Part shown: one piece after another, positions 11,370 to 22,933 of the stretch
Numbering within the stretch: the first letter of the stretch is position 1
How the letters are laid out: every line of letters starts with the position of its first letter
Source: a virus
DNA length: 22,933 nucleotides
IMG/VR virus record: IMGVR_UViG_3300009440_000036
Span: 1-22,933 of that record
Strand: one strand, 5' to 3'
Position numbers and translations under genes: made by a program
The notes under the pieces: generated by a model
The model's database searches: none
Told to the model about the DNA's origin: nothing
The model's input: the letters and a program-made list of their open reading frames with translations, nothing else

Positions 11370-11626
11370 AAAACAACGACCACGTCTGTTGACTTAATAA
11401 CGTGATATATTTTTTTATTATTCTGTATCTTATGACCAGCATGCTTATCATAAAATATAATATCTTCTTTTTTAACCCCTTCAACATCATTACCTAGGCT
11501 TATAATTTTAGCCTTTAAGTATCTAATGTCATCTCGGTGTATTTCTGCTAAAAGTAATCCACCATCAGTTTCCTGAATTTGATCTTCTAGCTTTTCTATA
11601 ATTAAATTTCTACCTAGTGCTTTCAT
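11366..11626 (-). CDS. groES: GroES co-chaperonin (Cpn10), 86 aa
   Basis: This is the heptameric lid of the GroEL folding chamber. The family landmarks are present in order: MKALGRNLIIEKLE at the start, the mobile-loop region ETDGGLLLAEIHRDD (a GGLLL in place of the usual GGIIL/I), then KAKIISLG, then VKKEDIIFYDKHAGHKI and YHVIKSTDVVVVL at the end. Length (86 aa) is a little under bacterial GroES (about 95). It begins inside the 3' end of groEL, overlapping it by 17 bases, and ends in a GTGA overlap with the winged-helix gene. In phages the pair is thought to help fold capsid proteins, as phage T4 gp31 does with host GroEL. Confidence 0.93.
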   Translation of the reverse strand: MKALGRNLIIEKLEDQIQETDGGLLLAEIHRDDIRYLKAKIISLGNDVEGVKKEDIIFYDKHAGHKIQNNKKIYHVIKSTDVVVVL

Positions 11627-13160
11627 CTATTCTCATATTATTAATTACACAATCAGTAGAAAGAATAGTTGTTGCCACAGAAGCCGCGTTAATCAAAGCG
11701 CTTTTAGTTACGAGCAAAGGATCAATAATCCCTGACTCAACCATATTTACCATTTTTCCTGTAACCACGTTTAATCCAGTACCATCATTTTTACTAAAAT
11801 CCGGTTCTTTAATATTAGCGTTTTTAAGTATAGTTTTAAAAGGTGACTTTATAGCTTCTAATAATACTTGTTGACCTTTTGTTTTAGGTTTTATTATTGA
11901 CGAAGCATTTAATAAAGCAATACCACCTCCTGGTACTATACCTTGTTTTATAGCGGCTTTTGTAGCACATATAGCGTCTTCAACCCTATCTGTTTTTTCT
12001 TTTAATTCTACATCAGAAAAAGCACCTACTTTTACTATAGCCACTTTAGCACTTAATGTAGCTAATCTTCTTTCTAAATTAACAACAACGTGTGCAGGGT
12101 TTTTCTTTTTTAAATCTTTTTTAATTTTTTCTATAAAATCTTTAGCTTCATCAGGTATTTCTTCTACTTGAATTACTGTTTGATTTTCTTGAGAAATTGA
12201 CTTTACACATTCACCTAAGTAATCTATTTGTATTGCATTTAAATCATCACCTAAATCTTCATTGATTATAGTTGAGTTTGTAAGTAATGCTAAATCATTT
12301 AGTATTTCTTTTTTACGTAAGCCATATGCTGGAGGGTCTACAACGTTTACTTTAATATTACCCTTCATTTTATTCATTACTAAAGCAGAAAGAACAGTGG
12401 GGTCAACTTCGCCTATTACAAGTAGTGGCTTGTTGTTTTTTATTACATGTTCTAGCACAGGTTGTATTTGTCTAATAGATTCTACTTTTGATTCCATTAT
12501 TAAAACTAATGGTTTGTCTAACTCCGCCGTACCTTTTTCTTTGTTAGTTATAAAGTTTTGATGGCAGTAACCTTTGTAGTATTCTATGCCATCTACTATC
12601 TCTGTTTCTGTTATTCCGTTTTCAGAAACACCCAGTGTCACAATCCCTGTTTCACCTACTTCTCTAAAAGCATCGCCTATTAACTTACCTAGAACTTTAT
12701 CGTTGTTGGTTGATATAGTTGCTATATCATCTATCATGTCACCTTTAACGGGTATACTTATTGATTCTAAATATTCAACAACTTTATCAACAGCTTTGTT
12801 TATACCTTCTTTTAGTTCTCTAGTGTTTACGTCCTTACTACGAGCTTCACTTAGTATAGCGTGAGCTAATACAGTAGCTGTAGTTGTTCCATCGCCAGCT
12901 TCATTAACTGTTTTTCTTGCTGCGCCTTTTAACAAAGTTGCACCCATATTTTCAATTGGATCGTGCAATGTTATACAGTTTGCGACAGTAACACCATCCT
13001 TTGTTATGACAGGATTACCCTGGTCATCTTCCATTATAACACATTTACCGCTAGCTCCAAGTGTGGAGCTAACAGCATTTGTGAGTTGTTCAATTCCTTT
13101 AAATATTTTATCTTTAGCTTTGTCTCCAAAACTAAGATTTTTTACTATAGCGTCTGCCAT
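11610..13160 (-). CDS. groEL: GroEL chaperonin (Cpn60), phage-encoded, 516 aa
   Basis: It forms a double-ring ATP-driven folding chamber with GroES. The catalytic residues match those of bacterial GroEL: the ITKDGVTVA loop (D55, equivalent to E. coli D52), NEAGDGTTTATVLAHAI (D90, equivalent to D87), and RVEDAICATKAAI (an aspartate near residue 390, equivalent to D398), followed by PGGGIAL. The apical segment GYCHQNFITNKEKGTAELD corresponds to the substrate/GroES-binding face. Length is 516 aa instead of about 548, and the GGM-repeat tail is absent: the protein ends NNMRIDESTR. The gene precedes groES, the reverse of the usual groES-groEL order. It is the first large gene after the candidate promoter at 13532-13543. 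Host chaperonin genes are usually essential and transferred rarely; carriage by a phage is unusual but known. Confidence 0.97.
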   Translation of the reverse strand: MADAIVKNLSFGDKAKDKIFKGIEQLTNAVSSTLGASGKCVIMEDDQGNPVITKDGVTVANCITLHDPIENMGATLLKGAARKTVNEAGDGTTTATVLAHAILSEARSKDVNTRELKEGINKAVDKVVEYLESISIPVKGDMIDDIATISTNNDKVLGKLIGDAFREVGETGIVTLGVSENGITETEIVDGIEYYKGYCHQNFITNKEKGTAELDKPLVLIMESKVESIRQIQPVLEHVIKNNKPLLVIGEVDPTVLSALVMNKMKGNIKVNVVDPPAYGLRKKEILNDLALLTNSTIINEDLGDDLNAIQIDYLGECVKSISQENQTVIQVEEIPDEAKDFIEKIKKDLKKKNPAHVVVNLERRLATLSAKVAIVKVGAFSDVELKEKTDRVEDAICATKAAIKQGIVPGGGIALLNASSIIKPKTKGQQVLLEAIKSPFKTILKNANIKEPDFSKNDGTGLNVVTGKMVNMVESGIIDPLLVTKSALINAASVATTILSTDCVINNMRIDESTR

Positions 13161-17562: not shown

Positions 17563-18273
17563 TTAGTTTAGTATTGACGATCCTGCTACTGTTTTATCAA
17601 AATCGACTGTTATTGTTGTTGCGTTTGTGTATGTTACACATCCTTTTATTTCGTTTGGCGGATTTGAATTGTCAGTTAAAGTGACTGAAGGTTCTGCCTT
17701 ACCTGTTGTATTGTTTATAATCCATTGTGTTGATGAGGTAAAATTTTGTTTTAAGTTTACATCACCACTACTAGTTATGTCAAAATGTATTAATGTATAT
17801 TGAGTTCCTTGTGGAGCAACAACTCCATTACCACCGATGTAGGTTAAATCAGCTATATAATAAAAAGGATCTGCAGGATCTACAGTGTAAGTGTCTAATG
17901 TATAATTACCAAACTGACTTATCTGATCACCTTGACCTAGCAATATGGGTTTACCTGTTATATACTCTAAAAACTTAACTACATTTTGACCGTTTAGTTC
18001 TGTTATAGATATTCTTACTTGTGTCAAAGTATCAAGTCCCGTTCCGGATCCACCACCACCGGTTTTAGATATAGTACCATTTCCACCATTTTGCGTATCA
18101 GACCATTTAAATGACATTTGACCGCCTATGTTTACCTTAGCATTAAGGTTTAGGTATTTAGCTACTGCTGATGCAGTGAATTGCTTTGTCTGTCTGTTTA
18201 ATGCGTCAGTTCCTATCCACGCGTCATTATCTGTGACAGTTGTATCAAATGGATACGAACTTATTCTAGCCAT
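17563..18273 (-). CDS. Fibre/baseplate-type protein with SYP-IGT N-terminal module (236 aa)
   Basis: The N-terminus reads MARISSYPFDTTVTDNDAW, then IGTDALNRQTKQFTASAVAK. The same layout (SYP ... D ... IGT ... F(T/S)xxxxA) begins the 187-aa gene just before it. This suggests a common tail-attachment module. The rest is beta-rich (SFKWSDTQNGGNGTISKTGG, QVRISITELNGQNVVKFLEY, DVNLKQNFTSSTQWIINNTT) and probably forms a short fibre or a fibre-base protein. No catalytic motif. Functional assignment by composition and position among fibres. Confidence 0.65.
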   Translation of the reverse strand: MARISSYPFDTTVTDNDAWIGTDALNRQTKQFTASAVAKYLNLNAKVNIGGQMSFKWSDTQNGGNGTISKTGGGGSGTGLDTLTQVRISITELNGQNVVKFLEYITGKPILLGQGDQISQFGNYTLDTYTVDPADPFYYIADLTYIGGNGVVAPQGTQYTLIHFDITSSGDVNLKQNFTSSTQWIINNTTGKAEPSVTLTDNSNPPNEIKGCVTYTNATTITVDFDKTVAGSSILN

Positions 18274-18279
18274 GAGTTA

Positions 18280-18843
18280 TTATGTTTGAGGAAATAATCT
18301 ATATGTTAAATTTATTGTTAGTGTTCCGTTAGGTGTACCAGCAATTACAGGGTCTGCAGCTGTACCAAGTTTTAAATCTCCACCTCTTCTATAATTACCA
18401 TTTTCAGCCGCTATAGTATAAGGCCCTTGTACAGCTCCGCTACCATTAGGTAGTTGCAATTGTGGTATAATTATCTTATTATTCGTCGCTGCGTCATTCC
18501 ATGATATAAAAGCACCTGCTGCATCCCAAGTATAACTGCTACCAAGAACGCCTCCACCTTGTAATATCGATGCACTTATTAATTGTAAGTACTCTCCATC
18601 TCCACTGCCACCAGCTAAAGTAAGTAAAGTAATATCAGTTGTACCTAGTGTTCTTAACTGAGCATCTGTTACTGTAAAAGTAGTAGTTACTACGTTAGGT
18701 GCGTTACCTAAACTTGCTATGCTATCTACTGAAAAATTTCTAGTAGTTGGCATCTCGTCAGAATTAGCCGGTGGTATCGATGTACCAATTATATAATCTC
18801 CCTTTTTAGGCGTGCCTTTTGGATAGCTTTGCAGTATAGACAT
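18280..18843 (-). CDS. Fibre/baseplate-type protein, first gene of the late cluster (187 aa)
   Basis: The N-terminus MSILQSYPKGTPKKGDYIIG, then TSIPPANSDEMPTTRNFSVD, is the partner of the 236-aa protein's module. The remainder is beta-rich (VVTTTFTVTDAQLRTLGTTD, EYLQLISASILQGGGVLGSS, TLTINLTYRLFPQT), fitting a small virion or tail-tip protein. It is the first minus-strand gene after the divergent intergenic region, and its start lies 524 bp from the first plus-strand gene. It could be the tail-proximal adaptor of the fibre complex. Unrecognised family. Confidence 0.6.
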   Translation of the reverse strand: MSILQSYPKGTPKKGDYIIGTSIPPANSDEMPTTRNFSVDSIASLGNAPNVVTTTFTVTDAQLRTLGTTDITLLTLAGGSGDGEYLQLISASILQGGGVLGSSYTWDAAGAFISWNDAATNNKIIIPQLQLPNGSGAVQGPYTIAAENGNYRRGGDLKLGTAADPVIAGTPNGTLTINLTYRLFPQT

Positions 18844-18976
18844 TTAGTTAGTTTTTATTTATTTTCTTTAGTCTATATCATTACAGGTTTTGAAGTGTTT
18901 TTACATAAAGTGTGACAATAGGGTGTTACTTATCTATATTATAAGGCTTATGTCACTGTTTTTTAAAAAGTTGTTA

Positions 18977-18984
18977 CAAATATA
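18977..18984 (-). promoter_or_regulatory. Possible Bacteroidetes -7 element (TATATTTG)
   Basis: The minus strand reads TATATTTG, a perfect match to the Bacteroidetes housekeeping consensus TAnnTTTG. It points toward the late cluster, about 135 bp before its first ATG. I do not see a clear TTG at the -33 position, which weakens the call. A second A/T-rich site, TTATAATATAG at about 18935, lies nearer. Confidence 0.3.
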
Positions 18985-19102
18985 GGGGTATGGTGTTGCT
19001 ACTTTAAATTCTAAAAACTTTTCAAAAAGAAAAATGACTTTTAAATTTGGGGGTCCGCGTCCGTTTTAGAATTTTCAACGTCATATATACGACTTTTCAG
19101 GG

Positions 19103-19114
19103 CCCCGAGCGGGG
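19103..19114. other. G+C-rich hairpin CCCC-GAGC-GGGG
   Basis: A perfect 4-bp inverted repeat (5 bp if the loop is counted as AG) in otherwise A/T-rich DNA, flanked 5 bases upstream and 7 bases downstream by direct copies of GACTTTTC (19091-19098 and 19121-19128). It could stop transcription from either side, but no clean U tract follows. A replication or protein-binding element is another option. Confidence 0.35.
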
Positions 19115-19190
19115 GGTTTAGACTTTTCTACCTAGATTTCATACCTATTATCCTGTCTCGCTCTTCTTTTCCTTGTGAGATTTAGTTGTA

Positions 19191-19295
19191 TGACACATTG
19201 ACATGACACATATGACTGATTGTCATGACATTACGTCATATATATAATATACTATTGTTAGTGACATAGTGACATAGTGGTATGACATCTTGTCA
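19191..19295. repeat. Cluster of TGACA / TGTCA elements
   Basis: In 105 bp, TGAC(A) occurs at 19191, 19199, 19204, 19213, 19226, 19262, 19270 and 19283, and the inverse (T/C)GTCA at 19221, 19234 and 19291. Positions 19221-19230 form a perfect palindrome TGTCATGACA, and 19262-19277 is an 8-bp tandem TGACATAG. Two more copies lie at 18913 (direct) and 18951 (inverse). This density in a divergent regulatory region suggests binding sites for a phage or host regulator, or origin iterons. It is not a CRISPR: units are too short and not evenly spaced. Confidence 0.6.
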
Positions 19296-19324
19296 CATTC
19301 TACTACTAAACTATTTTACATACT

Positions 19325-19354
19325 TAATACGAAGTTATAATGATAATATAAATG
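19325..19354 (+). promoter_or_regulatory. Early promoter candidate 1 (TACGA-N8-TGATAAT)
   Basis: TACGA at 19328-19332 and TGATAAT at 19341-19347, followed by ATAAAT. The half-sites are 8 bases apart, as in the four other copies. It lies 20 bases before the first plus-strand gene (ATG 19368) and just right of the TGACA array. Confidence 0.65.
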
Positions 19355-19367
19355 TAACAAACTAACT

Positions 19368-19511
19368 ATGAAACGAATAACTTACATACAATCAATAGAA
19401 TTATTTCTACTAAAAAATCCAGAAGTAATTATACAAAATGTTTTACCTCAATGTATACTTGATGAACTATATTACTTTCAAAGATTTCAATATAAGTTAT
19501 TACAAACATAA
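19368..19511 (+). CDS. Unidentified 47-aa early protein
   Basis: The first plus-strand gene. It reads from ATG (19368) to TAA (19509-19511): MKRITYIQSIELFLLKNPEV, then IIQNVLPQCILDELYYFQRF, then QYKLLQT. It looks like two helices (basic and hydrophobic faces) with no known motif. Support for being real: promoter candidate 20 bases upstream, the ACTATG start context shared with five other genes, and clean codon use. The next promoter candidate overlaps its stop codon. Probably a host-takeover peptide by position; function unknown. Confidence 0.6.
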   Translation: MKRITYIQSIELFLLKNPEVIIQNVLPQCILDELYYFQRFQYKLLQT

Positions 19512-19537
19512 TACGAATACATAATGATAATAATAAT
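19510..19537 (+). promoter_or_regulatory. Early promoter candidate 2
   Basis: TACGA at 19512-19516 and TGATAAT at 19525-19531, with the 8-base spacing. The first half touches the stop codon of the 47-aa gene. It lies 48 bases before the next ATG (19580). Confidence 0.65.
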
Positions 19538-19579
19538 GTAACTAATAAATACTAATAATAATAATAAATACTTTTAACT

Positions 19580-19810
19580 ATGCAAAATTCAATTCAATCA
19601 AAAAGATTCGTAATCAGAAAATCTTTAATCGGCAAAAATACTACTATCAATGTAGAATTTAAATCAGGCAAATCATTCACTTACAATCACGATAAAGTGT
19701 ATGAAATTATGAAAGACAAATTATCTTCTATAAATTGCTTTGAAAAATATGGCTCGTACACTTCTTCAACTAGTGTTCCAGTTGTACTAAGAGATAAAGA
19801 GGTAGTATAA
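19580..19810 (+). CDS. Unidentified 76-aa early protein
   Basis: The protein begins MQNSIQSKRFVIRKSLIGKN, then TTINVEFKSGKSFTYNHDKV, and ends SVPVVLRDKEVV. It looks like a small alpha/beta protein: a beta strand with FVIRKS, a beta hairpin with NVEFKSGKSFTY, and a helix (YEIMKDKLSS). No signal peptide, zinc site or enzymatic motif. ACTATGCAA start context as in three other genes here. An 11-bp hairpin begins within its last codons and spans the stop (19796-19823). Function unknown. Confidence 0.7.
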   Translation: MQNSIQSKRFVIRKSLIGKNTTINVEFKSGKSFTYNHDKVYEIMKDKLSSINCFEKYGSYTSSTSVPVVLRDKEVV

Positions 19811-19823
19811 CCACTACTTCTTT
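19796..19823 (+). terminator. 11-bp hairpin across the stop codon of the 76-aa gene
   Basis: AAAGAGGTAGT (19796-19806) pairs with ACTACTTCTTT (19813-19823), with one G-U pair and the loop ATAACC. It contains the gene's stop codon and stands just before the structured RNA region. The T run is part of the stem, not after it, so it is at best a weak terminator. It may instead mark the 5' boundary of the RNA or block translation readthrough. Confidence 0.45.
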
Positions 19824-19976
19824 ACAAAACGGTGACTATCCGAACCGAGTAGGCAACAGACTAAACTGGATATTATACAGGCGCGTTAAGCTGTGTACAT
19901 CACCTGTCTAAATAATGTTGAAAACAGCAATGTCACTATGGTATATAAGTGTGTTCGATTCACACTGTGACAACTA
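19824..19976 (+). ncRNA. Structured RNA element ending in a tRNA-like minihelix
   Basis: No gene fits between 19811 and 19993. Nested stems are visible: CGGT/ACCG (19830-19833 with 19844-19847); CAAC/GTTG (19854-19857 with 19917-19920) enclosing ATTAT+ACAGG (19872-19881), which pairs with CCTGT (19903-19907) and ATAAT (19912-19916) around a 4-base bulge. GCTGT in the loop (19890-19894) can pair with ACAGC (19924-19928), a possible pseudoknot. The 3' end is the minihelix described separately. G+C is higher than the flanks. It may be a processed leader or an independent small RNA of the early transcript. Not a known family that I can name. Confidence 0.6.
19931..19976 (+). ncRNA. tRNA-like minihelix 1 (acceptor stem + T-arm + ACTA)
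   Basis: TGTCAC (19931-19936) pairs with GTGACA (19967-19972), a 6-bp acceptor-like stem. Between them lies a 12-base joint, then a 5-bp T-stem GTGTG/CACAC (19949-19953 and 19961-19965) with the loop TTCGATT. One unpaired T (19966) separates the T-stem from the acceptor strand, and ACTA follows, in the place of the discriminator base and CCA. There are no D or anticodon arms. Acceptor plus T-arm is the minimal substrate of RNase P, so processing at the 5' side of 19931 is a testable idea. Confidence 0.6.
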
Positions 19977-19993
19977 ATAACTAAATTATAACT

Positions 19994-20203
19994 ATGTCAA
20001 ATTTCAAATTCAGAGGATTTATTCCTGCAGTAACTAAATATGTAAAATCAAAACCACTAGTAGAAGTAGTGGCGGAAGTAATAGCTTTCGGTTTACTAAT
20101 GCCATTAGCGTTTGGCGGAATTACTTTCTTCATCTTTATGATGATAACAGGCCAAGTTGATTATTCAGCGATGGATTCTATTAACTGTCAAATCTGCTAC
20201 TAA
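19994..20203 (+). CDS. Small membrane protein (69 aa)
   Basis: The protein begins MSNFKFRGFIPAVTKYVKSK (basic, amphipathic), followed by VEVVAEVIAFGLLMPLAFGG and ITFFIFMMITG, a long hydrophobic stretch of about residues 24-52. That is long enough for one, possibly two, membrane segments. The tail VDYSAMDSINCQICY is acidic with two cysteines. It may act at the host membrane, for example as a superinfection-exclusion or inhibitor peptide; that is inference. Start context ATAACTATG. Its stop overlaps the next gene's ATG (TAATG). Confidence 0.7.
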   Translation: MSNFKFRGFIPAVTKYVKSKPLVEVVAEVIAFGLLMPLAFGGITFFIFMMITGQVDYSAMDSINCQICY

Positions 20204-20346
20204 TGAAAAGTTACTACAGCAAACTACAGCAGAGATTTATAGCTCGTGAAGAATACTTTGACGAGCTACTCTTTGGAACTCTCAATGATGAGAACTACGA
20301 CAAGCCAATACAAACTAAATACGACTCTAAATCGATAATACAATAA
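20203..20346 (+). CDS. Unidentified 47-aa early protein
   Basis: The protein reads MKSYYSKLQQRFIAREEYFD, then ELLFGTLNDENYDKPIQTKY, then DSKSIIQ. It is short, charged and helical in the first half. No domain is recognised. It starts in a TAATG overlap with the membrane protein's stop and ends just before the third gene of the string; the third promoter candidate lies inside its last codons. Gene density and overlap support it. Confidence 0.6.
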   Translation: MKSYYSKLQQRFIAREEYFDELLFGTLNDENYDKPIQTKYDSKSIIQ

Positions 20347-20347
20347 A
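20318..20347 (+). promoter_or_regulatory. Early promoter candidate 3
   Basis: TACGA at 20320-20324 and CGATAAT at 20333-20339 with the same 8-base spacing (one T-to-C change in the second half). It sits inside the end of the 47-aa gene at 20203-20346 and 34 bases before the ATG at 20374. Confidence 0.55.
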
Positions 20348-20373
20348 ATACTAACTAATTAAATAATAATATT

Positions 20374-20484
20374 ATGTCTTCAAAATACTTAAATATATCC
20401 TTCAGAATATATGGCAAGCACTTCAACTTGTTAACTAAAGAACAAAAATCTAAAGTTATTGAAATATACTACGACTTTTACTAA
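20374..20484 (+). CDS. Unidentified 36-aa early protein
   Basis: Reads MSSKYLNISFRIYGKHFNLL, then TKEQKSKVIEIYYDFY. Very short but has a normal start with A/T-rich leader, a promoter candidate upstream, and a following gene after only 12 bases. Aromatic and basic. No known domain. A real micro-protein is more likely than chance, but it could be noise. Confidence 0.5.
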   Translation: MSSKYLNISFRIYGKHFNLLTKEQKSKVIEIYYDFY

Positions 20485-20496
20485 ACTAATATAACT

Positions 20497-20631
20497 ATGC
20501 AATATATATTAACTTGCCCTAACGGTAAACAGATAGATATGTCAAGCTACATACTACTGCAACTCGAAAGAAAAATAGAAAGACAAGAAGTCTTAGAACG
20601 TATTAACTACTATAAATCAACTAATAAATAA
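20497..20631 (+). CDS. Unidentified 44-aa early protein
   Basis: Reads MQYILTCPNGKQIDMSSYIL, then LQLERKIERQEVLERINYYK, then STNK. A short strand with one cysteine, then a charged amphipathic helix (ERKIERQEVLERIN). ACTATGCAA start context. It is 4 bases ahead of the next gene's ATG. Unknown function. Confidence 0.6.
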   Translation: MQYILTCPNGKQIDMSSYILLQLERKIERQEVLERINYYKSTNK

Positions 20632-20635
20632 TACT

Positions 20636-20878
20636 ATGCAATTTCAAGATACTAAATTCAAAGAGCTAGACGCTCAAGGTCTAATTACTGATAAACTAAA
20701 TCAAATCAAAGAGTTTGAAACTAAATACAAAGCTTGTACTTCAAGTATAGCTATGTACAAATGGTGTACTGACTACGAATATCGTAAGCGAGAGTGGCAA
20801 TTCAGACAAGGAATAGCTAATTATGCGCTACATAATGGTCATAAAGCTTTTCAAGGTACAGATAAGTCTATACTGTAA
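20636..20878 (+). CDS. Unidentified 80-aa early protein
   Basis: Reads MQFQDTKFKELDAQGLITDK, a charged helical part, then KFKELD ... KEFETKYKACTSSIAMY, then KWCTDYEYRKREWQFRQGIA and NYALHNGHKAFQGTDKSIL. Several W/Y residues and two cysteines (C33, C44). No motif that I recognise. It has the ACTATGCAA start context (ATACTATG) and ends 46 bases before the next gene, with the fourth promoter candidate in the gap. Confidence 0.65.
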   Translation: MQFQDTKFKELDAQGLITDKLNQIKEFETKYKACTSSIAMYKWCTDYEYRKREWQFRQGIANYALHNGHKAFQGTDKSIL

Positions 20879-20887
20879 TACATACAA

Positions 20888-20917
20888 AATACGATTAACT
20901 ATTGATAATATAATAAA
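20888..20917 (+). promoter_or_regulatory. Early promoter candidate 4
   Basis: TACGA at 20890-20894 and TGATAAT at 20903-20909 (8-base spacing), followed by ATAATAAA. It lies in a 46-bp gap and ends 15 bases before the ATG at 20925. Confidence 0.7.
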
Positions 20918-20924
20918 TTAAACT

Positions 20925-21128
20925 ATGCAAAATATAATCAAACAAGTAGACAAAACTACTATCAAATTAAACAACATAACTTACAAAGGTTATCCAGTCG
21001 GCGAATTACCAAACAGATTTGCCTTCATCTACAATAGCGACAAAGACCAAGAAGGTATTAACTCGTGGTTTAATTACAAAGGCTTAACTTATATTGAATA
21101 TAAACCTACAATCTGGTCTTATGTCTAA
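20925..21128 (+). CDS. Unidentified 67-aa early protein
   Basis: Reads MQNIIKQVDKTTIKLNNITY, then KGYPVGELPNRFAFIYNSDK and ends YIEYKPTIWSYV. A beta-rich small protein with aromatic patches. ACTATGCAA context, promoter candidate 4 just upstream. The gene's end overlaps the start of the next by 8 bases. No domain recognised. Confidence 0.7.
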   Translation: MQNIIKQVDKTTIKLNNITYKGYPVGELPNRFAFIYNSDKDQEGINSWFNYKGLTYIEYKPTIWSYV

Positions 21129-21375
21129 TCCAACTACAATGAAAGAACTGTGTCTCTATGCAAAACAGGCGCAACAAAATCGTGCAAGCGAGCATAGGCG
21201 CAAGCACGCACATGACGGCAGGTGTGGTGGGCTCACAGATGCAGAGTACAATCGCGTACAAATTAATGGCAAGAAATCCTATTCTGCCAAAGCACGAAAG
21301 TTCACTCACAACCGTATGTGGAAACATCAATCAAGATATTCAGTAAAACAATTAATAGAAATAGTAAAAACATGA
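21121..21375 (+). CDS. Highly basic, high-G+C 84-aa protein
   Basis: I choose the start MSNPTTMKELCLYAKQAQQN (ATG 21121) over an upstream one inside the previous gene (21094). The protein is rich in H, R and K (RASEHRRKHAHDGRCGGLTD, then NGKKSYSAKARKFTHNRMWK) and might bind nucleic acid. By hand count, 21181-21240 is 37/60 G+C (62%), against an A/T-rich surrounding. Codons CTG, CTC, GCG, CGC and AGG appear only here. Start and stop both overlap neighbours (8 and 4 bases), which supports this frame over others open in the same stretch. Possible recent import. Confidence 0.6.
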   Translation: MSNPTTMKELCLYAKQAQQNRASEHRRKHAHDGRCGGLTDAEYNRVQINGKKSYSAKARKFTHNRMWKHQSRYSVKQLIEIVKT

Positions 21376-21641
21376 GTGATACAATTAAAAAATGGCACGA
21401 AATGCAAGAAAATAAAGAAATAAATCCAGTAGATATTGGATTAATAGCTAAATATATATTCTTACTAGATTTTACAGATGGTAAAGTATATAGATATGAC
21501 ATTAGCGTGTTATGTACAAAAGAAAATAAATGGAATCCTGATACAGAATCATGTGAGTCGTTTTTATATGGCGCAGGTCACAAGTTAAATGACTGTGAGT
21601 GGATGGTAACTAATAATAAAGGAATAGAATTTGGAAACTAA
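21372..21641 (+). CDS. Unidentified 89-aa early protein
   Basis: Start MSDTIKKWHEMQENKEINPV chosen at ATG 21372 because it overlaps the preceding TGA (ATGA). An upstream ATG at 21318 would add 18 residues that lie within the previous gene. Features: DIGLIAKYIFLLDFTDGKVY, RYDISVLCTKENKWNPDTES, SFLYGAGHKLNDCEWMVTNN. Alternating strands and a few cysteines; no motif recognised. The mix of acidic and aromatic residues suggests a soluble cytoplasmic protein. Confidence 0.7.
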   Translation: MSDTIKKWHEMQENKEINPVDIGLIAKYIFLLDFTDGKVYRYDISVLCTKENKWNPDTESCESFLYGAGHKLNDCEWMVTNNKGIEFGN

Positions 21642-21759
21642 AACAACTAATCCATGGGATTTAGCGTGGTCTAAATGGTGGGTACAACAGAACTACAAGA
21701 AATGCGAAGTCGATGAAATGACACTAAGCGAAATATATGAACTATTAGAACAAGATTAA
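21631..21759 (+). CDS. Unidentified 42-aa protein with TTG start
   Basis: Reads METKTTNPWDLAWSKWWVQQ, then NYKKCEVDEMTLSEIYELLE, then QD. It begins with TTG (21631-21633), since TAG lies two codons upstream and no ATG is available before codon 30. The tryptophan-rich NPWDLAWSKWW segment and charged helix TLSEIYELLEQD look protein-like. Its start overlaps the previous gene by 11 bases. The TTG start is an inference. Confidence 0.5.
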   Translation: METKTTNPWDLAWSKWWVQQNYKKCEVDEMTLSEIYELLEQD

Positions 21760-21894
21760 ATGAGAACACTTAAACTAACAGAAAACGACTGCACTTTTGT
21801 ACACTATGTACTACGTATGTACGCTCAGCAAACACCTGGGTTAGATCAAGAAGACAAAGATGAAATACGTGAAGTCGCAGCTAAATTTAAATAA
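21760..21894 (+). CDS. Unidentified 44-aa early protein
   Basis: Reads MRTLKLTENDCTFVHYVLRM, then YAQQTPGLDQEDKDEIREVA, then AKFK. The ATG follows the previous stop with no gap (TAAATG). Helical, with one cysteine and an acidic middle; no domain recognised. An inner ATG in another frame (21860) starts an artefactual open frame. Confidence 0.6.
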   Translation: MRTLKLTENDCTFVHYVLRMYAQQTPGLDQEDKDEIREVAAKFK

Positions 21895-21895
21895 T

Positions 21896-22084
21896 ATGAA
21901 AGAATATATAAATAACGAACTAAGTAAACTAGATCGTGGAATAGTAGCTACGCCTACCGAAGAATACCTTGACAGTTTTGCAGAAGCAAACAACGGAAGT
22001 AATGACTTTTTACTAATGCAATTAGCTAAAAACTATGGCTATCAACTAGCTTTACTTAACATTAAAAACAAAATAAATGAGTAA
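21896..22084 (+). CDS. Unidentified 62-aa early protein
   Basis: Reads MKEYINNELSKLDRGIVATP, then TEEYLDSFAEANNGSNDFLL, then MQLAKNYGYQLALLNIKNKI. Start chosen at ATG 21896 (an ATG at 21860 would start 12 residues inside the previous gene). The C-terminal helix is hydrophobic/aromatic and could pack in a dimer. Ends overlapping the next start by 8 bases. Unknown function. Confidence 0.65.
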   Translation: MKEYINNELSKLDRGIVATPTEEYLDSFAEANNGSNDFLLMQLAKNYGYQLALLNIKNKINE

Positions 22085-22253
22085 AATGTCAGAACTAGAT
22101 TTGATTGCACAAGGTGTAGCAGATCATATGAAAGAAATTATTGAAGACAGTGTTGATTGGCAATTAGCTGACCAACCACTTGACGGTGATGAATATATGG
22201 AAATGAAAGAATATGTTATTAACTTAGCTTTAAATAAATTGTTAGGTAATTAA
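22077..22253 (+). CDS. Unidentified 58-aa early protein
   Basis: Reads MSKMSELDLIAQGVADHMKE, then IIEDSVDWQLADQPLDGDEY, then MEMKEYVINLALNKLLGN. The first of two in-frame ATGs (22077) is used; the second is at 22086. Acidic and helical. It ends just before promoter candidate 5. No domain recognised. Confidence 0.65.
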   Translation: MSKMSELDLIAQGVADHMKEIIEDSVDWQLADQPLDGDEYMEMKEYVINLALNKLLGN

Positions 22254-22263
22254 TTACAAAACA

Positions 22264-22293
22264 AATACGAATATTAATTGATAATATAATAAA
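22264..22293 (+). promoter_or_regulatory. Early promoter candidate 5
   Basis: TACGA at 22266-22270 and TGATAAT at 22279-22285 (8-base spacing), followed by ATAATAAA. It lies in a 48-bp gap, 16 bases before the zinc-ribbon gene's ATG, and would also read into the RNA region to the right. Confidence 0.7.
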
Positions 22294-22301
22294 CTAAAAA
22301 T

Positions 22302-22490
22302 ATGTATTGTAGATGCGGAACAAATATACCACGGTTGCGATTAGATATGGGCTACAAAACCTGTGTTAATTGCTCAACAACCCAAACGTACAGCTATGTA
22401 CCAATTATTGAGCATAAAACCGGTAATACAATACAAATCGTCAGTCAAGAAGTAAGTGCATCTGTGCACAGAGCTTGGCGTAGAAAGTAA
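22302..22490 (+). CDS. Small zinc-ribbon protein (62 aa)
   Basis: The N-terminus MYCRCGTNIPRLRLDMGYKT, then CVNCSTTQTYSYVPIIEHKT, carries C3, C5, C21 and C24: a CxC ... CxxC zinc-ribbon. The spacing and the CG-x-x-I-P-x-x-R-L stretch resemble the DksA/TraR-type zinc finger but without the coiled-coil arm. It may bind RNA polymerase or nucleic acid. The rest (GNTIQIVSQEVSASVHRAWR) is beta-rich and basic. It follows promoter candidate 5 and is next to the large RNA region, likely in the same transcript. The role is inference. Confidence 0.65.
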   Translation: MYCRCGTNIPRLRLDMGYKTCVNCSTTQTYSYVPIIEHKTGNTIQIVSQEVSASVHRAWRRK

Positions 22491-22933
22491 GTACAAAGAG
22501 TTTTACGGTATATAGCTCTATCTAAATATGAAAACCGACTCCAGCGAATAAATAACAGACCGCGGCGTAAGCAAAGGTAGAAAATGTCTGGAATGGCGAA
22601 AGATACGATTAGTGATCACACAATAGCCGGTAAACTAGGTATGGATGTAACAGGTGTTATTAAGTTAAACAGAGTTCATTACTACGACGGTATGAAGGTT
22701 CGATTCCTTCACTAGTTACTAAAAATCTTATAAATGTGAAGGGCTCAGTATGGCTGTAGGAACTCAGCGAAGAGATACGTGGTTAAGCTGACGAAGATCC
22801 TTTAATTTTATAAGTCGTAGTATCACGGGTTGCAGAGTAATTAACTGCATGCACGGTGGAAGTCCGATCGTTGAAGTGGTGAGGGATCGTTATGAACTCA
22901 TGGAAACGGAGATAACTACGTAATGGGGGTGAC
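22491..22933 (+). ncRNA. Large structured RNA region, runs off right edge
   Basis: No gene fits this 443-bp stretch. Pairings seen: CAGAC/GTCTG (22556-22560 with 22586-22590); TGGC/GCCG (22594-22597 with 22626-22629); a long stem, 22727-22742 with 22799-22814, broken only by a 2x2 mismatch and one G-U; inside it GCTG/CAGC (22753-22756 with 22765-22768); TGCAG/CTGCA (22831-22835 with 22845-22849); CGATC/GATCG (22865-22869 with 22885-22889); and a closing stem CGTAGTATC (22816-22824) with GATAACTACG (22911-22920) with one bulged A. A tRNA-like minihelix lies at 22630-22721. Large ornate RNAs of phages such as GOLLD or ROOL, which have been reported near or around tRNAs, are the closest idea; I cannot test it. 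Confidence 0.65.
22630..22721 (+). ncRNA. tRNA-like minihelix 2 (acceptor-like stem + T-arm + ACTA)
   Basis: AACTAG (22633-22638) pairs with CTAGTT (22712-22717), extended by GT/AC (22630-22631 with 22718-22719) around one bulged A. The T-arm is GAAGG/CCTTC (22694-22698 and 22706-22710) with the loop TTCGATT, the same as element 1. One base (A22711) sits between T-stem and acceptor strand. ACTA follows, as in element 1. The 55 bases between acceptor 5' strand and T-arm do not fold into good D and anticodon arms: a CAT loop candidate at about 22676-22682 has only 3 of 5 stem pairs. Confidence 0.6.

Follow-up and report, generated by a model that had tools for sequence, protein, structure and literature searches.

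tRNA-like elements without an anticodon arm in a marine phage: candidate mRNA-leader cassettes and mini-tmRNAs

Introduction

RNA ends can be set with the enzymes that act on tRNA. In mascRNA of MALAT1 and in mitochondrial tRNA punctuation, the ends are set via RNase P and RNase Z. Minihelix-Ala, an acceptor/T-arm helix carrying the G3.U70 pair, is charged by AlaRS. Among phage RNAs, RNase P cuts the C4 antisense RNA of P1 and P7, M3 RNA and the T4 gene 32 mRNA, and RCCA contacts the RNase P RNA, according to the available part of a published account (PMC11143913).

A second group of tRNA-like molecules derives from tmRNA. The Mycobacterium phage DS6A TLD-only tmRNA, or one similar to it, is reported to inhibit tmRNA in E. 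coli (available parts of PMC4131195 and PMC11915505), and this inhibition by a TLD-only molecule is reported to be independent of charging (available part of PMC4131195). The parts of the literature covered by our search describe no TLD-only phage tmRNA besides DS6A. In all forms taken together, 79 unique phage tmRNAs are counted, and tmRNAs without a tag frame are recorded from mitochondria and tmRNAs of about 65 bp from plastids (available part of PMC11915505). These last are organellar and not phage molecules, and the mitochondrial form is thought to aid with incomplete mRNAs rather than to inhibit. Here we describe tRNA-like elements of a marine phage and its relatives that fall into three classes, two of which may be leader cassettes (A and C) and one of which resembles the tRNA-like domain of tmRNA (D).

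Results

The window, by which we mean the whole stretch of DNA analysed, is an entire virus record of 22,933 bp from a marine phage. Its terminase is similar to terminases from Bacteroidota phages (62.5% for MW202828, 44% for Flavobacterium elemoviruses and 36-38% for Cellulophaga phages). A longer record, L082 (IMGVR_UViG_3300025620_000006; 65,174 bp), extends the window and is identical to it over the 8,940 bases compared; it is therefore the same phage. Blastn of window positions 18500-22933 against phages gave no matches. A GroEL-type chaperonin is encoded on the minus strand at 11610-13160 (Pfam Cpn60_TCP1, E 4.8e-58). The sequence AATACGA-N8-TGATAATA occurs four times on the plus strand (19326-19348, 19510-19532, 20888-20910 and 22264-22286) and in none of 100 shuffles; the copies lie, by eye, just 5' of small ORFs and look like a set of promoters. 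The region of the elements is presumably an early phage region. Its features are as follows.

19931..19976, plus strand: element 1, class A, a minimal anticodon-less tRNA mimic (T-arm/acceptor search, relatives, class covariation)
19931-19936 paired with 19967-19972, plus strand: acceptor of element 1 (T-arm/acceptor search)
19937-19948, plus strand: linker of element 1
19949-19965, plus strand: T-arm of element 1
19973, plus strand: A73 of element 1
19974-19976, plus strand: CTA of element 1
19994..20203, plus strand: 69-aa ORF directly 3' of element 1, possibly a membrane protein (by eye)
22491..22924, plus strand: region around element 2 in which no ORF reaches 60 aa (ORF list)
22584..22715, plus strand: 43-aa ORF, HTH-like by eye, overlapping element 2
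22633..22721, plus strand: element 2, class C tRNA mimic (search pattern; compensatory acceptor in L457)
22925..22933, plus strand: first nine bases of element 3, a class D mini-tmRNA that is complete in L082 (8932-9009)

Pfam returned no family for the 69-aa ORF 3' of element 1, nor for the last 42 residues of the 43-aa ORF.

A preliminary description of this DNA had reported two tRNA-like minihelices, the first with only 12 bases in place of the D and anticodon arms. Searching for a 5-bp T-arm with a TTCRANN loop and an acceptor of at least 6 bp recovers both as described. These are the only two complete elements in the window, compared with 0.1 per shuffled window in 50 mononucleotide shuffles, which contained 0.7 T-arms each. 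The 12 bases of element 1 and its coordinates stand, while element 2 starts at 22633 and not at 22630. Element 1 is a 42-nt mimic consisting of a 6-bp acceptor (TGTCAC/GTGACA), a T7.T66 mismatch, an ATGG linker (ATGGTATATAA) and the T-arm GTGTG-TTCGATT-CACAC, followed by A73 and CTA. Element 2 runs from its acceptor (AACTAG/CTAGTT, with a G7.A66 mismatch) through TATGG, a variable domain and the hairpin CTAC-GACG-GTAT to the T-arm GAAGG-TTCGATT-CCTTC, A73 and CTA. Neither carries the alanine identity pair G3.U70, as element 1 has U3-A70 and element 2 has C3-G70. The pentamer GGTAT does precede both T-arms, as had been pointed out, but as a shared motif it is a coincidence: the copy in element 1 belongs to a D-loop-like linker, and the copy in element 2 forms the 3' side of the hairpin.

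Both elements have hallmarks of tRNA (RF00005), namely an acceptor and a T-arm with a 7-nt TTCRANN loop. The anticodon arm is absent, with 12 nt between the acceptor and T-stem of element 1. Neither ARAGORN nor Rfam at its gathering scores reports anything in the window, and we reject a canonical tRNA identity. Folding energy was rejected as proof of a fold: its signal is weak for element 1 (z = -1.78, matched by 10 of 200 shuffles) and insufficient for element 2 (z = 0.09, matched by 99 of 200), and the support for the elements is therefore comparative. The stem differences between elements 1 and 2 had been offered as compensatory evidence, which is not valid because the two belong to different classes. 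Within each class, relatives do keep the pairing by compensatory changes. Element 1 has TGTCAC/GTGACA where relatives have TGTCAT/ATGACA, and element 2 has AACTAG/CTAGTT where its relative L457 has AACCAG/CTGGTT (5' strand read by eye). Covariation in relatives, detailed for class A below, strongly supports the proposed minihelix of acceptor and T-arm with a discriminator and a CCA-like tail.

Relatives of element 1 were fetched through the downstream 69-aa protein, giving 19 loci (L082 included) that were not chosen for their RNA. The protein gene has a tRNA-like element no more than 420 nt upstream in 17 of them, and the two most diverged, L099 and L100, have no such element. Nine loci, L082 among them, carry an element of the element-1 type, its acceptor being TGTCAC/GTGACA or TGTCAT/ATGACA (one G.U pair in L087). 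Five have a 103-nt type with the acceptor GGGTAAC/CTTATCC, which does carry G3.U70, and in the remaining three a third type lies 200-321 nt upstream. Since element types are exchanged at the same gene, the location seems more important than the acceptor. The discriminator of element 1 is 20 nt from the ATG. The sequence 5' of element 1 (19811-19930) is by eye largely conserved in its closest relatives.

A collection scan for class A used the pattern ATGGTN{3,8}GTGNGTTCGATTCNCAC, in which acceptor and tail are free and the constancy of the T-arm and GG linker is partly built in. It yielded at least 119 stretches and, pooled over all collected loci, at least 106 unique contexts, 6 of them inside ARAGORN genes. 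The matches listed, minus ARAGORN genes and incomplete flanks and with a shorter context for uniqueness, comprise 80 contexts. Among these matches listed, 64 of 80 pair over 6 bp at a fixed predicted place and 16 do not, compared with a mean of 4.0 and a maximum of 11 for shuffled partners (500 shuffles) and 0-12 for slid 5' strands. The 64 paired contexts among the matches listed hold 29 distinct acceptor hexamers, a figure that weighs more than the 64 because the sequences are related. All six acceptor pairs vary in type and G3.U70 occurs in 0/64, again among the matches listed. The discriminator and the three bases after it read ACTA in 38 of the 64 listed, ACAA in 9 and TCTA in 6; C and then T or A follow the discriminator in 59/64, although the tail is absent from the pattern. 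Seven tRNA genes in the relatives likewise end in ACTA or CCTA.

Class A elements lie upstream of 62 ORFs in 38 clusters among the matches listed, with two elements having no ORF, and a single cluster can have several class A acceptors. They lie a median of 24.5 nt from an ATG that starts 30 or more codons, compared with 116 for random positions, and their commonest start-codon distance is 14 nt (11/64 of the matches listed). The tRNAs of the same loci are equally close (median 24 nt), so the spacing fits a tRNA-like unit, proves no role for the downstream gene and does not discriminate between processing and other functions. No ARAGORN tRNA was found within 30 nt of the class A elements (0/64 among the matches listed). 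The processing signal suggested in the preliminary description gains partial support, in that the position in the leaders of small genes fits, and action of RNase P, RNase Z or a CCA enzyme is plausible.

The evidence for class C is thinner than that for element 1. A complete scan with a pattern of hairpin stem and T-arm, which partly builds in the constancy of the hairpin stem, matched 12 unique contexts with enough flank, one of which (L456) resembles an ordinary tRNA. The other 11 have CTAGTT at the 3' side (CTGGTT in L457), and 10 of the 11 share the same acceptor. The hairpin loop is TGACGA in nine and GACG in two, relatives mostly reading CTAC-TGACGA-GTAT, and a domain of variable length separates AACTAGG from the hairpin in the 10 contexts where AACTAGG was found. 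The 43-aa ORF over element 2 was set aside as a conserved feature, since by eye relatives lack it or carry it truncated, and is probably not what is conserved here. Two modules from this part of the window recur elsewhere: 22877-22900 is identical to a 24-nt module in the P2 position of the class D element of L186, and 22543-22558 to a 16-nt module in the P2 position of that of L113. It is as if modules had been shuffled into a tRNA-like scaffold.

Beyond what had been noticed earlier, a third element with a link to tmRNA starts in the last nine bases of the window. In L082 it is 78 nt long and has no message part, and it scores 60.6 bits against the whole RF00023 model (gathering score 47). 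Among seven loci with class D elements, only L082 reaches this gathering score. A permissive RF00023 scan covered 16 more loci and matched 12 of their 13 short elements (E 1.1e-6 to 2.8e-23), the exception being that of L136. Four of the 13 are above gathering (L118, 65.0 bits; L178, 64.9; L117, 63.4; L158, 60.8) and eight are below it (25.7-37.8 bits, E <= 1.1e-6). The same scan also found two full-length tmRNAs.

Scanning the collected loci with GGTTTYGACN{14,44}GGANNNNNGTTCGANTC, with acceptor and tail free, gave at least 99 unique mini-tmRNAs, at least 97 of them with a 7-bp acceptor; the D-loop motif is in the pattern and its constancy is thus partly built in. All 97 of the matches listed have G1-C72, G2-C71, G3.U70 and A73, and every Watson-Crick type occurs at each of their pairs 4-69, 5-68 and 6-67. 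Class D shares with tmRNA the G3.U70 pair, A73, a D-loop without a stem and a P2 helix. The message-like domain with its tag frame is absent, whole canonical elements measuring 62-81 nt up to A73 (matches listed). P2 has at least six contiguous pairs in 75/97 of the matches listed, compared with a shuffled mean of 2.2 and maximum of 8. Owing to D-linkers of unequal length, a MAFFT alignment of 61 mini-tmRNAs displaced the 5' acceptor; a 28-row alignment and the model R1 represent sequences with compatible linkers, and the position-aware P2 count covers all 97. In the 28-row alignment, 98.5% of cells are paired (67.6% when shuffled) and covariation is 0.806 (0.160 when shuffled).

At least 52 further unique elements are of a second form, which has GGTTAG or GGTAAG. 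These come partly from a class D pattern that includes ACTA, and tail counts from that pattern are biased. About 150 unique elements (at least 97 plus at least 52) thus look like tmRNA tRNA-like domains without a message part. Among the matches listed, 12 of 99 mini-tmRNAs lie 0-8 nt from a tRNA gene on the same strand, and two more overlap ARAGORN calls, one a tmRNA and one a tRNA-Glu. Mini-tmRNAs are also present, with no RNA annotation, in Streptomyces phage LuckySocke, which grows on S. lividans (17977-18054; RF00023, 57.1 bits), and in Stenotrophomonas virus Jojan60, where the element overlaps a hypothetical CDS (61.8 bits). Both are in R1 and their R1 scores are therefore not independent, whereas the RF00023 scores are. 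In cellular genomes, at E <= 1e-7, R1 matched 1 of 296 Bacteroidota (L592, 44.4 bits) and 0 of 296 Actinomycetota, a weak negative overall because 16 candidates were scored per genome. R1 had no match in seven related isolate genomes.

Mimics also occur in related isolated phages. Cellulophaga phage phi13:2, whose host is C. baltica #13, has one, unannotated, at 27796-27879, with a 7-bp acceptor and the tail TCTA; its discriminator is 26 nt from the mazG-like gene gp073 that follows. Cellulophaga phage Calle_2 has another, also unannotated, at 37292-37356, with the tail CCTA and upstream of Calle2_34. MW202828 and the one elemovirus tested had no mimics when a CTA or CAA tail was required. ARAGORN misses several further tRNA-like elements. 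Those in L149, L154, L177 and L179 include some with, by eye, seemingly a D-arm and no clear anticodon arm, and L619 and L624 (Calle_2 and phi40:1) have a 139-nt element with the acceptor TCCTTAG/CTAAGGA and a large insert. Streptomyces phage FlowerPower (L578) has an unannotated gap of about 244 nt in a tRNA cluster (475-718) with no Rfam match.

Discussion

We lean towards the reading that classes A and C are mRNA-leader processing cassettes and that class D is a tmRNA-blocking mini-tmRNA, and give it somewhat better than even chances. The structures, the covariation, the G3.U70 contrast, the placement and the position of some mini-tmRNAs beside tRNA genes are all observed directly; all the cleavages, charging and inhibition in these phages are inferred. 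Phage transcripts would hold mimics of an acceptor and T-arm without an anticodon arm. Host RNase P would cut a class A or C mimic at the 5' side of its acceptor and RNase Z would cut after A73, so that the downstream message would gain a defined short leader starting with CUA and the mimic would be set free as a small RNA. The CUA tail could keep part of the contact that RCCA makes with the RNase P RNA (C-G, U.G). The adjacency to tRNA genes that supports tRNA-type processing covers mini-tmRNAs only, as no class A element among the matches listed has an ARAGORN tRNA within 30 nt. A class D mini-tmRNA, which carries G3.U70, the identity pair for AlaRS, along with A73 but has no message part, would, charged or not, compete with host tmRNA for SmpB, AlaRS and EF-Tu, and the competition would inhibit trans-translation during infection. 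Because of the DS6A-type precedent, class D probably is such an inhibitor. The invariance of G3.U70 in 97/97 of the matches listed suggests that alanylation may matter for class D, while the inhibition in the precedent needed no charging. At class A sites, we argue that position and not synthetase identity is selected, given that element types are exchanged at one gene and class A acceptors are free.

The two lines may have a common source. Many elements of classes A and D share the linker ATGGTTA, although ATGGT itself is in the class A pattern, and these similar linkers form a visible bridge between the mini-tmRNA and cassette lines, suggesting that class A may be derived from class D by loss of P2. 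A more far-reaching version, possible but held with more doubt than confidence, is that the tRNA-like domain of tmRNA has been made versatile. The line that kept G3.U70 would supply free anti-rescue mini-tmRNAs, and the other, having lost the P2 arm and alanine identity, would have become a punctuation cassette of about 40 nt, with several interchangeable mimics per genome marking the 5' ends of messages.

It could also be that the small RNA itself is the product. The mimics would then be functional decoys, with RNase P, the CCA-adding enzyme, EF-Tu or a tRNA-targeting defence as the target, and the mRNA would be cut merely to make them. Acceptor pairing, A73 and C74 are kept though absent from the class A pattern, several different mimics occur per genome, and for class D decoy action has experimental precedent in the available parts of PMC4131195 and PMC11915505. 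However, the freedom of class A acceptors (29 hexamers) and the lack of G3.U70 (0/64), both among the matches listed, make a single synthetase unlikely as the target, and the class A elements listed are spread before 38 ORF clusters with no single locus. We regard decoys as an unlikely, if serious, explanation. Uncut cis-acting leader structures that stabilise the mRNA or tune downstream translation would agree with the typical start-codon distances (14 nt for 11/64 class A elements listed, 20 nt for element 1) and with the lack of any listed class A element within 30 nt of a tRNA gene. A plain hairpin would suffice for such a role, yet acceptor pairing, discriminator and C74 are kept though free in the pattern, and a similar fold stands 0-8 nt from real tRNAs in 12/99 of the mini-tmRNAs listed, which leaves uncut leaders quite improbable.

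Two further explanations have very little in their favour. Prophage attachment sites (attP) with the 3' ends of tRNA or ssrA genes are suggested by blastn matches in Gordonia, Tsukamurella and Mycobacterium phages, which consist of the 3' half only and lie beside an integrase. Our elements have a matching, covarying 5' acceptor strand and occur several to a genome; an attP fragment is contradicted by that strand in classes A and D, and by the matched change of L457 in class C, and we find the idea barely credible. Degenerate tRNA genes without function would account for the missing anticodon arm and for the failure of ARAGORN to call any, but compensatory changes in acceptor and P2 are far above the shuffled and slid controls. 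Decay would not yield compensation, so the covariation contradicts this explanation and we give it almost no weight.

If the cassette part of the favoured reading is true, these elements would be a new way for DNA phages to set mRNA ends using host tRNA enzymes. The parts of the literature covered by our search describe no class A-like mimic. C4, M3 and T4 gene 32 mRNA resemble the proposed cassettes as non-tRNA phage substrates of RNase P, but the available part of the account of them has no covarying acceptor/T-arm family before many genes (PMC11143913). MascRNA and mitochondrial punctuation are eukaryotic or organellar and are not reduced to an acceptor and T-arm with a linker of about 10 nt. 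Class D has the identity pair of Minihelix-Ala on the same minihelix, whereas class A has the minihelix with G3.U70 in 0/64 of the matches listed. The 29 covarying acceptors among the matches listed would be a natural mutagenesis set for recognition by RNase P and RNase Z.

Class D falls within a known kind of which few examples have been sampled. It is like the DS6A TLD-only tmRNA, by description, in consisting of a tRNA-like domain and little else in a phage, and like mitochondrial and plastid tmRNAs in having no tag reading frame (available part of PMC11915505). DS6A is the sole phage case named in the available parts of PMC4131195 and PMC11915505, whereas class D supplies at least 97 unique ones whose acceptor is complete. 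Across all forms, the available part of PMC11915505 arrives at 79 unique phage tmRNAs, against these at least 97 that are TLD-only. If the reading of class D is true, anti-trans-translation RNAs would be common in phages and not a curiosity of DS6A, and the question whether ribosome rescue is shut off by phages would become directly testable.
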